This document shows, piece after piece, positions 8,706 to 28,214 of a stretch of 30,454 nt of DNA; within the stretch, counting starts at the first letter, position 1, and every line of letters begins with the position of its first letter. The notes below the pieces were generated by a model, which had not been told where the DNA came from, searched no databases, and worked only from the letters and a program-made list of their open reading frames with translations. A program made the translations under genes and the position numbers. The DNA comes from a virus: positions 1-30,454 of IMG/VR virus record IMGVR_UViG_3300037042_001224. One strand, written 5' to 3'.

Positions 8706-10115
8706 ATGGCCTCACTCACCCCAAGCCCAAAGATGCAATTCTTCACTGCCAGCGGAATCCCGCTGGTTGGGGGAAGGCTGTACACATACGCGGCAGGCAC
8801 AACCACCCCGCTTGCTACTTACACGGACTCCACCGGCACCTCGGCCAACACCAACCCTGTCATCCTTGACTCGCGCGGGGAAGCAAGCGTTTGGCTGGCA
8901 AACAGCTTGTATAAGTTTGAGCTCAGAGACAGCGTTGACGCTTTAATCTGGACTTCGGACAACATTGGGAATGCCAGCTCGTACACCGGGACTGGCGCAA
9001 TTGTTTTGTCAAATGGCGCGACAATCACATCAGCCACGATCGCATCGTCAACTCTAAATTCTCCGACGATCAATTCAGCGACGTTGACTTCGGCAACTTT
9101 AAACTCAGCAACATTGAACTCCCCCACGTTGGTTTCTACCAACCTTGGAACGCCGACTGCGGGTGTGCTTACAAATGCCACAGGTTTGCCTTTGTCGGCT
9201 GGAACGACAGGATCTTTGCCAACTGCAAGACTTGCAAATGCAGGTTCCGAGCTCGGGATGCGCAACCGCGTGATAAACGGGAACATGCAAGTTGCGCAAC
9301 GGGGAACAAGTTTTAGCGGGTCTCCGTTGAATGGATACACAGTTGATAGATGGCGTATTGACAGAACAGGCACTGGGTCTACAACCGTCACAAGGTCTGC
9401 TAACTTTAGCTACGGCGGCAACTATGTTGTTGACGTTTCTGGCTCATATGCTCCAGGAGAATTCCAAGACTTTAAGCATCGCATTGAGTTTCTTAACTGC
9501 GCTGACCTAGTTGGGAAAAGTGTAACGCTTAGCTTCTGGGCATCTGGCAGCACAACAGTCGGAAGCCTGACTCATACAGTGTTTTTGAATTATGCAAACA
9601 CGTCAAACAATTTTGCAGCAACAACAAACATTGGCTCAAATTCCATATCCATAACACCCACAGCCACGCTGTTTACATTTACCTTTACCAATCTTCCAGT
9701 AGGCGCGTCCAACGGACTTGAGATTGTTTTTAGATCTGCGCAAAGTGTGGCAACTGGGACCGCTACTTTGAGCATTAGCTCTGTTCAGCTTGAAGAAGGA
9801 TCTACCGCTACGCCTTTTGAATATGTTGACGTTACAACGCAACAATCTAGGTGCCAGCGGTATTTTACGACGTCATCTTTTTATCTTGCTAGGTATGTGA
9901 ATGGCGGACAGACTTTTGCGGGGGGGACAATTTTTAACAAGGTAACAAGCAGACTAACATCACCGGCCGTTACGCTTTCAGGCATTGTGTATTCTTTGTG
10001 TTCTGGGGCTTCTGTATCTAACATTACTTCGGATTCTTTTGTGGTAAACGCTACAACATCATCCAACGCGGAAGCAACTGTTAGCGCAACGTACACGGTA
10101 GATGCTGAACTTTAA
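8706..10115 (+). CDS. Tail fibre with virion-binding N-terminus and pentapeptide-like repeat
   Basis: 469 residues. Residues about 10-75 (MQFFTASGIPLVGGRLYTYAAGTTTPLATYTDS, VILDSRGEASVWL, YKFELRD) form a head/tail-binding module also found on other phage spikes. Residues 109-148 are eight five-residue repeats of the form S-[AP]-T-[LI]-x, likely a narrow beta-helix shaft. After a flexible Gly/Thr linker, RNRVINGNMQVAQRGTSF...YTVDRWR opens a carbohydrate-binding-like domain ending in VQLEEGSTATPFEYVD. QSRCQRYF and a final sheet domain close the protein. It starts two bases after the needle stop. Predicted role: host receptor binding. It is a second fibre beyond the genes at the left edge. Confidence 0.82.
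   Translation: MASLTPSPKMQFFTASGIPLVGGRLYTYAAGTTTPLATYTDSTGTSANTNPVILDSRGEASVWLANSLYKFELRDSVDALIWTSDNIGNASSYTGTGAIVLSNGATITSATIASSTLNSPTINSATLTSATLNSATLNSPTLVSTNLGTPTAGVLTNATGLPLSAGTTGSLPTARLANAGSELGMRNRVINGNMQVAQRGTSFSGSPLNGYTVDRWRIDRTGTGSTTVTRSANFSYGGNYVVDVSGSYAPGEFQDFKHRIEFLNCADLVGKSVTLSFWASGSTTVGSLTHTVFLNYANTSNNFAATTNIGSNSISITPTATLFTFTFTNLPVGASNGLEIVFRSAQSVATGTATLSISSVQLEEGSTATPFEYVDVTTQQSRCQRYFTTSSFYLARYVNGGQTFAGGTIFNKVTSRLTSPAVTLSGIVYSLCSGASVSNITSDSFVVNATTSSNAEATVSATYTVDAEL
9030..9149 (+). repeat. Coding repeat: eight five-codon units in fibre shaft
   Basis: Eight units of 15 bases encode S-[AP]-T-[LI]-x (SATIA, SSTLN, SPTIN, SATLT, SATLN, SATLN, SPTLV, STNLG). The copies differ at third codon positions, so the protein rather than the DNA repeat is conserved. 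Such runs form beta-helical shafts and can change length by recombination. Confidence 0.7.
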
Positions 10116-25703: not shown

Positions 25704-25733
25704 TTGACACTATAGTTCAGTCGGGCGTATCAT
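25704..25733 (+). promoter_or_regulatory. Rightward divergent promoter
   Basis: TTGACA (25704-25709), an 18-base spacer, TATCAT (25728-25733). It faces the HTH gene and the Prim-Pol operon. Its -10 touches the -35 of the leftward promoter, so only one polymerase can bind at a time. Confidence 0.7.
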
Positions 25734-25738
25734 GTCAA
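25709..25738 (-). promoter_or_regulatory. Leftward divergent promoter
   Basis: On the minus strand TTGACA (25738-25733), an 18-base spacer, TATAGT (25714-25709), facing the 61-residue gene. It occupies almost the same DNA as the rightward promoter, in the opposite direction, and probably starts near 25701. Confidence 0.75.
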
Positions 25739-25767
25739 CACCCCAACGCAACTTTTTTAACAACAAC

Positions 25768-25956
25768 ATGCTTACACTTGAATTGATACGCGCACAGCTT
25801 CAGGATCGGCGTCTGACTGTCATTTCTGAGAAGACTGGCCTGCATCCGAACACTCTGAGGGACATTCGCAACAATGCTGATTGCAATCCGTCTCACCGGG
25901 TGTTGGCGGCGCTGAGTGACTATTTGACAAATAGCGCAAAAGCAGTGCTTTCCTGA
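25768..25956 (+). CDS. Cro-like helix-turn-helix regulator
   Basis: 62 residues from the ATG at 25768. An ATG at 25732 would add 12 residues but lies inside the promoter -10 box and cannot be in the promoter's own transcript. LTLELIRAQLQDRRLTVISEKTGLHPNTLRDIRNN is a helix-turn-helix with the turn in SEKTGLHPN, and SHRVLAALSDYLTN is the last helix, as in small phage XRE/Cro proteins. No Shine-Dalgarno is visible, suggesting weak translation. Placed at the divergent promoters, it is the natural candidate for binding the TGTCAACAC boxes and switching between leftward and rightward genes. Confidence 0.82.
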   Translation: MLTLELIRAQLQDRRLTVISEKTGLHPNTLRDIRNNADCNPSHRVLAALSDYLTNSAKAVLS

Positions 25957-26012
25957 TTGCGTTGTCTCTCTTATCCTGTTAAGGTTTGTATGCCAACCAG
26001 TTAACGTGTGCC

Positions 26013-26100
26013 CCTAGGTGGGGGCTGGGACCCGTACACGCGGGTGAGGTTGGCGCTTCGCCCAGCCTCCACCTAGGTGCTGAATTCAGAAAGCGCCAAC
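26013..26100 (+). promoter_or_regulatory. Structured leader RNA with predicted pseudoknot
   Basis: Stem 1: CCTAGGTGGGGGCTGGG (26013-26029) pairs with CCCAGCCTCCACCTAGG (26061-26077), 17 pairs with one G-U. Its loop holds a small hairpin ACCCG/CGGGT (26030-26034 with 26041-26045) and GTTGGCGCTT (26049-26058). The latter is exactly complementary to AAGCGCCAAC (26091-26100), outside stem 1 and touching the ATG at 26102. Pairing both makes an H-type pseudoknot that would cover the start site. No Shine-Dalgarno is visible there. It may be a cis-regulatory RNA or a binding site for a phage protein. Confidence 0.65.
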
Positions 26101-26101
26101 C

Positions 26102-26320
26102 ATGTCCGTATCAATTATTCCTGCCGCTCCAGGCACTTTTGCAATTTGTCAACGGAGCCACCACGACACCAGAGAGCGATCTCCTGAGCTTGTCATTGCT
26201 TGGCAAATTTATAGCGATCACGACCAAGAAGATTTGGGCGCTTTGTCGGTAACTCCGATTGGCGTGGATGGTCGAATTTGCAATTTAATTCGCGTTGTTC
26301 AAGGAGGATCAAATGGGTGA
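26102..26320 (+). CDS. Small hypothetical protein upstream of primase
   Basis: 72 residues; MSVSIIPAAPGTFAICQ is a start I recall from small phage proteins that precede replication genes. The rest is beta-rich (SPELVIAWQIYSDHDQE, LSVTPIGVDGRICNLIRVVQGG). It ends inside the first codons of the primase gene (8-base overlap), and its last codons contain the primase's AAGGAGG site, so primase translation is probably coupled to it. The start lies at the edge of the predicted pseudoknot. Function unknown. Confidence 0.7.
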   Translation: MSVSIIPAAPGTFAICQRSHHDTRERSPELVIAWQIYSDHDQEDLGALSVTPIGVDGRICNLIRVVQGGSNG

Positions 26321-28214
26321 TCCATCCAAAAAGCTTGAAGCGGCTCTCACATATGCTTCGTGGGGCTGGAAAGTTCTTCCGGTTGTCCCCAACGGCAAAG
26401 TTCCAGCGACAGCGCACGGCGTACACGACGCGACGGACGATCCGGACCAGATCCGGGCGTGGTTCACATCAAACCCAGACTTAAACATTGGCGTAGCGGC
26501 AGGACAGGCCTCCGGTCTTGTTGTGTACGACATTGACCCGCGCAACGGTGGCCAAGACAGTTGGGACGAGTGGACAGCAAAGCACGGCCAACTGCCCGAC
26601 GGGATCACAGCCTTAACAGCAGGCGGTGGCTATCACTATCTTGCTGCGTACCAAGACGGCATAAAGTCTTGCAAGCTGCTGGACGGCGTGGACTTGCTTT
26701 CAAATGGACGGTACTTTGTAGCGTACCCGTCTGAAATTGAAGGCAAGACGTATCAATGGGAGGCATCAAGCGACCCGTTCGACGGCGTGGGGCCAGTCAG
26801 CATTCCGCCGGAATGGCTTGCATCAATGATGCCGACTAGGAAAGAGCGAACAGCCTCGAATGATTCGTCAATCATCAAGGGCAATCGCAACTCGGGCCTG
26901 ACCAGCCTAGCTGGTGCAATGCGTTCTTATGGTATGAGTGAAGCTGAAATCTTGGCAGCTCTTAGCGTAGCGAATGAGACTCGCTGTGAGATCCCATTGC
27001 CCAGCTCGGAAATCCGGCAGATTGCTCGGTCGGTCTCTCGGTACGAGCCAAACAGCGACGTTGCCAGCTCGGTTGCGTTAGGGTCAGAAGCCGCTGAATC
27101 TTTGCTTGAGAATTTGGATGCAAAATCACCCGCCGAAGATTGGCTAGTCCCTGCTGACGACTACTGCGCCCAACCAGCCCCAATCTCATGGCTAGTGAAG
27201 CGCTGGGTACAGGATCAGGCCCTAGTAATGGTTCACGGGCCCAGCGGCGGCGGAAAGACTTTTGTTGTTTTAGACTGGTGCCTGCGCATAGCCAGCAGCA
27301 CCCCCGAATGGGCAGCTCAAAAGGTGAAGCCCGGCAAGGTTGTTTATCTAGCAGGCGAAGGCCACCACGGCCTGCGCAGTCGCATAGCCGCCTGGAAGCA
27401 TCACCACCAGGCCGGCCCCCTTCAGATGTGGCTAAGCAAGGCAGGGTGCGACCTGAATACGACCGATGGCTACAGAAAAGTAGCCGACTCAATCAAGGCA
27501 ATTCAAATCCTACCCAGCGTCATCGTCATTGACACCCTCCATCGTTTCCTTCTCGGAGACGAAAACAGCGCCCAGGATGCCAAGACAATGCTAGATGCCT
27601 GCGCCAACCTGATGCGCGAGTTCGACTGCACAGTCATCCTCGTTCACCACACGGGTGTTTCAGACGAAGCCCAGCACCGAGCCCGAGGCAGCTCAGCATG
27701 GAAAGGCGCCTTAGATATTGAAATCAGCATCGTCCCAGCAAAAGAAAAAGCGCCCATGCAGATCGTCCAACGGAAAAGCAAAGATGCAGAACTGGCTACA
27801 ACTATCCACGCCATGCTGCATCAAGTTGAGATCCCAGGGTGGATGGATGAAGACGGCCAACCAATTACCAGCGCCATAGTTGATTTGGTTGATGCCCCAG
27901 TTAATGAGTCAATCAAAGATGACAAATTAAGCAGGCATAGAAAGTTATTTGAGAATGCTTGGGCTGCAACTGGGTCAGAGGAAAGGGGTGGCAAACCATA
28001 TATGAGTAGATCAGGGTTTATGCAATACCTTGTTGATAAACTTGAATTAACCGAAGCATCGGCAGCGGTCTACACTAAGCCATCGGCCAAAGGCAAGCCA
28101 ATTTCTGAGCTGCTCTTAGGCAAAACCATTGACCATTTCGAGCATGGCTGGATTGTGGTGGACATCGTACAGGGGGACTCTATGTTGCTTTCGGCTTCAA
28201 AAAGGAGAAGGTAA
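26313..28214 (+). CDS. Primase-polymerase / RepA-type helicase fusion
   Basis: 633 residues from the ATG at 26313 (AAGGAGG five bases upstream). Residues about 1-170 are a Prim-Pol domain: GWKVLPVVPNGKVP, catalytic D73-x-D75 in YDIDPRNGG, GGGYHY (His108) and GRYFVAYPSEIEG. Residues about 185-245 (GNRNSGLTSLAGAMRSYGMSEAEI, SSEIRQIARSV) form a primase C-terminal linker domain. From about 290 is a RecA-fold helicase of the AAA_25/RepA type: Walker A GPSGGGKT (309-316), YLAGEG, Walker B SVIVIDTLHR, ILVHHTG and RGSSAWKGALD. The last 110 residues are probably an interaction domain. One protein could prime, extend and unwind at the origin. Confidence 0.93.
   Translation: MGDPSKKLEAALTYASWGWKVLPVVPNGKVPATAHGVHDATDDPDQIRAWFTSNPDLNIGVAAGQASGLVVYDIDPRNGGQDSWDEWTAKHGQLPDGITALTAGGGYHYLAAYQDGIKSCKLLDGVDLLSNGRYFVAYPSEIEGKTYQWEASSDPFDGVGPVSIPPEWLASMMPTRKERTASNDSSIIKGNRNSGLTSLAGAMRSYGMSEAEILAALSVANETRCEIPLPSSEIRQIARSVSRYEPNSDVASSVALGSEAAESLLENLDAKSPAEDWLVPADDYCAQPAPISWLVKRWVQDQALVMVHGPSGGGKTFVVLDWCLRIASSTPEWAAQKVKPGKVVYLAGEGHHGLRSRIAAWKHHHQAGPLQMWLSKAGCDLNTTDGYRKVADSIKAIQILPSVIVIDTLHRFLLGDENSAQDAKTMLDACANLMREFDCTVILVHHTGVSDEAQHRARGSSAWKGALDIEISIVPAKEKAPMQIVQRKSKDAELATTIHAMLHQVEIPGWMDEDGQPITSAIVDLVDAPVNESIKDDKLSRHRKLFENAWAATGSEERGGKPYMSRSGFMQYLVDKLELTEASAAVYTKPSAKGKPISELLLGKTIDHFEHGWIVVDIVQGDSMLLSASKRRR

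Follow-up and report, generated by a model that had tools for sequence, protein, structure and literature searches.

Sequence comparison identifies a site in the window analysed here, the 30,454 nucleotides at positions 1 to 30,454 of IMG/VR virus record IMGVR_UViG_3300037042_001224, as one member of an uncatalogued family of folded RNAs found in many uncultured phages. The family RNA occupies the beginning of an mRNA as far as the start codon of an operon for DNA replication enzymes, and it looks like a built-in switch. In the window, bases 25992-26101 probably make up the whole 5' untranslated region of an mRNA of the phage, in the form of a conserved structured RNA. The structure and the position of the element are well supported, while the transcription start, the switching and the direction of switching are what we infer from them. 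The family covaries strongly and is placed at the replication operons of uncultured phages of diverse kinds, which encode at least three types of primase/helicase downstream of it. Should the proposed switch operate, DNA phages would set the dosage of their replication enzymes by the loop-competition logic of plasmid copy-number control, inside a single RNA. Rather more tentatively, the family may represent a new class of RNA switch in phages, perhaps a riboswitch or an RNA that senses a protein, in which the first 7-8 nt of the mRNA compete with the bases before an AUG that lacks a Shine-Dalgarno (SD) sequence for a loop containing UUGGCG. Such a class would be the counterpart, probably of independent origin, of the pseudoknots of plasmid replication control, and would control primase/helicase synthesis without an antisense RNA.

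The comparison is based on 36 parsed leaders of the same architecture, all from one collection of uncultivated viral contigs (IMG/VR). They form 14 groups at 90% identity and seven at 80%, a relatedness that the permutation statistics given below ignore; the most diverged leaders checked are 66-71% identical to that of the window. The order of elements begins with a -10-like box, 6-8 nt, GCCAA(A)CC (the 5' strand of a pairing termed P0), a spacer, the 5' strand of a pseudoknot PK1, the 5' strand of a long stem P1 and an inner hairpin P2 with the 3' strand of PK1 in its loop. There follow G(G)(U)UUGGCGnnUU (the 3' strand of P0 and the 5' strand of a further pseudoknot helix, PK2), the 3' strand of P1, usually a U-rich stretch with GAAAG, then nnCGCCAA (the 3' strand of PK2) and the AUG. 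An earlier note on this DNA had described a pseudoknot leader ahead of a replication operon, and that observation as a whole is confirmed, the element being larger than described. Over the 374 bases from 25957 to 26330 the window folds better than most shuffles (z -2.24).

Boundaries and folded core of the leader

The predicted 5' end of the RNA, which the earlier note had missed, lies at about 25992 and is placed by a promoter-like extended -10 element on the + strand, TGTTAAGGT (25977-25985). The copy in the window is a weak match to the consensus; most relatives have TGCTAMAGT. The box stands at a constant position in 35 of the 36 leaders, L288 being without it, and since the 5' boundary thus falls 6-8 nt past it, transcription probably starts at the first base of the element. 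A conserved TTTAC is found about 10 nt before the -10-like hexamer in most members, which is not normal -35 spacing. Farther upstream, promoter-like TTGACA sites overlap on the two strands (25704-25738); they precede a small HTH gene (25732-25956) and probably constitute the divergent regulatory switch of the phage.

The 3' boundary, which is the AUG, is also constant among the leaders compared. At the ATG at 26102 the absence of an SD sequence, already remarked on, is borne out by a best anti-SD pairing of -0.1 kcal/mol, against -5 to -11 kcal/mol for many other genes in the window and -10.7 kcal/mol at the Prim-Pol start at 26313. Across the family the leader AUG is likewise without a clear SD, and the window's other genes mostly have one.

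Comparison establishes the helices of the core. The 17-bp stem with one G-U pair and the 5-bp hairpin in its loop that had been seen in the window are both present. The stem, P1, pairs CCTAGGTGGGGGCTGGG (26013-26029) with CCCAGCCTCCACCTAGG (26061-26077), both on the + strand; 16 of its 17 pairs have changed on both sides, and 99.1% of cells are paired. The hairpin pairs CCCGU with GCGGG (26031-26035/26040-26044) and corresponds to P2 of the family, which in the window reads CCCG-TACACG-CGGG (26031-26044, + strand) and in which 4/4 pairs show two-sided changes. Together P1 and P2 have 99.3% of cells paired and two-sided changes in 20 of 21 pairs, as high as in none of 500 shuffles, in an alignment that was fitted to the proposed structure and so favours it; a model-free parse gives the same stems, and sliding the partner strand destroys the signal. 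Across the family P1 measures 16-23 bp and admits many G-U pairs, as an RNA helix should. When 25957-26330 was subjected to 200 simple shuffles, the longest stem enclosing a loop of 30-60 bases averaged 9.3 bp and never exceeded 16. The calculated stability of P1 is -31 to -47 kcal/mol, and it should therefore form in either state of the RNA.

A second pseudoknot, PK1, had gone unnoticed. Its 5' strand, CGTGTG (26005-26010, + strand), pairs with 26035-26040 in the loop of P2, and it is formed in every member despite six core types (CGUGU/ACACG, UGUCC/GGACA, UGUGU/ACACA, CGAGU/ACUCG, ACCUA/UAGGU and CCUGU/ACAGG). Covariation of PK1, PK2 and P0 was computed on 13 distinct strand combinations. 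The five core pairs of PK1 are formed in all of them and all five change on both sides; 65/65 cells are paired and 0/2000 permutations are as good, although some of this pairing is built in, because the strands were chosen as the best complement in each sequence, and shuffled 5' tails match the observed score in 1%. The linkers are short, PK1 being separated from P1 by 2 nt in leaders of the window class and P1 from PK2 by 5-13 nt in most leaders, which makes it uncertain that all the helices coexist; by our own estimate, coexistence would require P2 to bend back alongside P1 or the base of P1 to fray.

Two strands in competition for one loop

The loop of P1 had been reported to contain ten bases exactly complementary to those just before the ATG. 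The complementarity is indeed exact, but it extends over 11 bp, with GGTTGGCGCTT (26048-26058) pairing to AAGCGCCAACC (26091-26101), both on the + strand, and ends directly at the ATG. UUGGCG is found inside the P1 loop in every leader. In this helix, PK2, 93.4% of cells are paired, 3/7 scored pairs have two-sided changes, and no permutation in 2000 did as well; its types include GGCGCUU/AAGCGCC, GGCGACU/AGUCGCC and GGCGCUG/CAGCGCC, and it is imperfect in L266, L273, L281, L286, L293 and L101. The earlier note had named a lack of covariation among relatives as a result that would refute its two helices; in the relatives compared here both of them covary.

A third long-range pairing, P0, was absent from that earlier picture and competes with PK2. 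It joins GCCAACC, the predicted first bases of the transcript (25992-25998, + strand), to 26048-26054, that is, to part of the PK2 5' strand. GCCA opens the predicted transcript in 36/36 leaders. The pairing is found in 96.9% of cells and was equalled in 1/2000 permutations, its covariation being weaker than that of PK1 and PK2 and consisting of G-U wobbles where the strand has varied and of one indel, by which AA or AAA in the 5' strand matches UU or UUU in the partner; P0 is poor in L288. The matched change in length, from GCCAACC/GGUUGGC to GCCAAACC/GGUUUGGC, supports P0 separately from PK2. The two helices share UUGGC and so cannot form together. Moreover, each has its own specific changes, the third U matching only the 5' strand and the bases after GGCG only the 3' strand, and the retention of both pairings in this manner has the logic of a two-state switch. 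Their duplex energies are similar (means of -13.7 and -15.5 kcal/mol), and prefixes of the window RNA of 62-75 nt fold with P0, before P1 can form. The comparison supports the earlier proposal that RNA structure gates translation; with a competitor at the 5' end, a switch between two states seems likelier than plain blocking.

Two other interpretations of these repeats and helices were rejected. The GCCAACC repeat might have flanked a mobile insertion, but it consists of the strands of P0 and PK2 and is kept by pairing. The order of helices is superficially like that of an HDV-like ribozyme, from which the leader departs in a P0-P1 region that is too short and in the lack of an Rfam match.

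On balance we consider it likely that the leader is a two-state translational switch. The core would consist of P1, P2 and PK1, which joins the 5' tail to the P2 loop, and the strand G(G)(U)UUGGCGnnUU in the P1 loop would be occupied either by the 5' end of the RNA, forming P0, or by the bases before the AUG, forming PK2. With PK2 formed the bases before the AUG would be locked in a helix and ribosomes could not start; with P0 formed, as could happen first during transcription, the start would be free. The reason for assigning the closed state to PK2 is that it extends to the AUG and thus into the ribosome footprint. The preference between states may be set through action on the P1/P2/PK1 core; neither a ligand nor a protein or antisense partner was found. 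Initiation at the first cistron would then carry ribosomes into the overlapping primase/helicase gene, and in this way the switch would set the synthesis of replication enzymes.

Alternative readings and known counterparts

The same RNA could also work with the opposite sign, PK2 (UUGGCG:CGCCAA) being the active state that aids the start and P0 an inhibitory competitor. This is unlikely but is a serious rival, because in plasmid ColIb-P9 a pseudoknot is the switch for translation of repZ, and the target loop there contains UUGGCG. The phage leaders have UUGGCG and CGCCAA ahead of a replication gene, as the plasmid does (titles of references 9, 18 and 19 listed in PMC10724649), and translation of the timP toxin mRNA also needs a pseudoknot that involves its 5' stem-loop (PMC11228461). 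However, PK2 in the phage leader is flush with the AUG or within a few bases of it, and so inside the ribosome footprint, and no SD is present that it could expose, which favours PK2 as the closed state.

In the replication-control RNAs of IncIalpha (ColIb-P9 repZ), IncB, IncL/M and IncFII (R1 CopT/CopA) plasmids, UUGGCG is in the loop of a stem-loop, a CGCCAA pseudoknot partner lies upstream of the controlled start, there is competition for the loop, and a leader cistron is coupled to the replication gene. The phage leaders share the target loop (36/36) and the pseudoknot partner (CGCCA before the AUG in 32/36, with PK2 covarying). They differ in that the competitor is the RNA's own 5' end, and in that their pseudoknot precedes the AUG of the leader cistron whereas that of the plasmids is upstream of the rep SD; they also have the additional P2 and PK1, different replication proteins and no Rfam match. 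In the 170 nt that follow P1, the best sigma-70-like score on the opposite strand was no better than in shuffles (maximum 8/12), and antisense control of the phage leader was rejected for lack of such a promoter signal, although a promoter of unusual type could have escaped this scoring. No initiator of the RepA/RepZ type was found downstream, where Prim-Pol/AAA_25, PriCT_2/AAA_25 or D5_N proteins are encoded instead.

The nearest functional analogues are the IncI/IncFII replication-control leaders and timP. A riboswitch-type two-state platform is plausible. Like the phage leader, timP mRNA has mutually exclusive 5'-UTR conformations, a long-range pairing supported by covariation and a ribosome binding site sequestered in one state (PMC11228461). 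Unlike it, timP has a pseudoknot formed between two stem-loops and required for translation, and timP is a bacterial toxin gene, unrelated in sequence, with an antisense RNA, TimR. The autoregulatory pseudoknot of T4 gene 32 is another phage leader pseudoknot that lies upstream of a replication gene and controls its translation; it is, however, a small pseudoknot of the H type, located 67 nt before the start and bound by gp32, and neither a competing 5' strand nor a second pseudoknot is described there (PMC3014915).

It is less probable still, indeed rather doubtful, that P1 serves mainly as a substrate for RNase III, cleavage of its 16-23 bp of near-perfect double strand of free sequence yielding a short-leader mRNA that is translated or decays. 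P1 is kept long and nearly free of bulges while its sequence varies, as this explanation would have it, but the conservation of P0, PK1, PK2 and UUGGCG would be left unexplained. A transcription attenuator, in which P1 and a U run form an intrinsic terminator and the other pairings act as antiterminators, is very unlikely: in diverged members P1 is often followed closely by 3-6 U, but there is no such run in the window, where UGCUGAAUUCAG follows the stem, or in its close relatives (UGCUUCAG), a terminator scan finds none, and the conserved boundary is the AUG, not a U run. That the element acts as DNA, for instance as a replication origin or an operator with inverted repeats, is hardly credible even though a long inverted repeat adjoins the replication genes, given how exactly the element fills the space from the -10-like box to the AUG, the abundant G-U pairs of P1 and wobble-only changes of P0, and the conserved SD-less start. 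Scarcely any more probable is a split ribosome binding site, in which the pseudoknot would bring an SD (GAGG beside UUGGCG, GAGGUUGGCGC in the window and close relatives) to the AUG, much as hairpins do in T4 genes 25 and 38, where RNA structure lies between a distant SD-like sequence and the AUG (PMC3014915), since the family as a whole does not conserve the SD-like sequence and the loss of GAGG in diverged L276 (ACGG), L281 (TTGG), L292 (GTCGG) and L288 (AAGAG) contradicts it as a general mechanism.

Distribution of the leader and the genes around it

Among relatives of the Prim-Pol/helicase in IMG/VR, the leader is nearly unchanged in some contigs and absent in L005-L010, which have in its place a Cro-like gene with an SD-like sequence. 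In L005-L007, just upstream of the helicase operon, GCCAAC is retained near the predicted transcription start and is followed by the Cro-like gene, as if the leader had been exchanged. Patterns derived from the leader DNA were matched upstream of quite different genes. A route independent of leader DNA used as query a 57-aa protein that is encoded just upstream in many contigs; a diverged leader lay close by at nearly every locus recovered, and at most of them it followed that gene directly. One further pattern scan added two members.

The 57-aa protein is encoded directly upstream of most leaders (for example in L098, where the gene ends 28 nt upstream of the leader at 10014; alignment A3). 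It is confidently predicted to be a small beta-barrel (pLDDT 91.7) with weak, SH3/KOW/Tudor-like matches in PDB, and on this model it is possibly a nucleic-acid binder. No homologue was seen in the window, so this candidate trigger in many members could serve the whole family only if the record of the window were incomplete. The protein had no match in phages and Burkholderiales, nor did the leader in records of isolate phages and plasmids. Bacterial genomes (sampled species of Burkholderiales and wider Gammaproteobacteria, under strict filters) gave no leader in searches with blastn, which can miss diverged members. The earlier statement that the element belongs to no known riboswitch class agrees with Rfam 15, in which no family matches: the window gave no gathering match and the window stretch only chance-level matches at E up to 10, and six diverged loci only chance-level matches at E up to 1. 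In the open-licence literature no description of the element was found.

Two contigs contain additional leader-like sequences. In L098, 4829-4927 on the - strand has a leader-like stem with GGGGGAG in the loop and ends shortly before the likely start of the phage DNA polymerase; it scored 32.9 bits with the first model, R1, only, was absent from the matches of the broader model, and was not counted as a second copy per phage. In L097 (6.5 kb) a partial leader (1-32) and a full one (1091-1198) stand in facing orientation at a distance of 1 kb and have different primase starts; the contig may be an assembly chimera.

The link to a replication operon that had been proposed holds throughout, the next gene being or resembling a primase/helicase in 32 of 32 scorable contigs; in three representatives the families are Prim-Pol with AAA_25, PriCT_2 with AAA_25, and D5_N. 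In the window the first cistron (26102-26320, + strand) starts without an SD and encodes 72 aa of the IIPAAPG family, with the same N-terminus in L085 and L089 and a related one in L280 and L291. It overlaps by 8 nt the start of the coupled Prim-Pol/PriCT-1/AAA_25 primase-helicase (26313-28214, + strand; Pfam PF09250, PF08708 and PF13481), which has the strong SD noted above. First cistrons vary across the family from 9 to 596 aa and are unrelated in sequence, comprising minicistrons of 9-11 aa with little shared sequence, a length of 24 aa, proteins of 64-106 aa, and long genes of 237-596 aa, some of them for DNA methyltransferases. In spite of this, comparison shows that their stop overlaps the primase/helicase start by 1, 4 (in most) or 8 nt in all 32 contigs scored, a count that leaves out three contigs ending too early and L293, whose next frame the script did not resolve. 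Translational coupling is the best explanation for such short overlapping minicistrons. In L276 (from 2143 and 2148) and L278 (from 2551 and 2556) the leader is followed by two long overlapping frames with starts 5 nt apart. One encodes a cytosine methyltransferase-like protein (308/340 aa) and the second (314/346 aa), alike in both contigs, overlaps the primase start; they are a possible fully overlapping gene pair.
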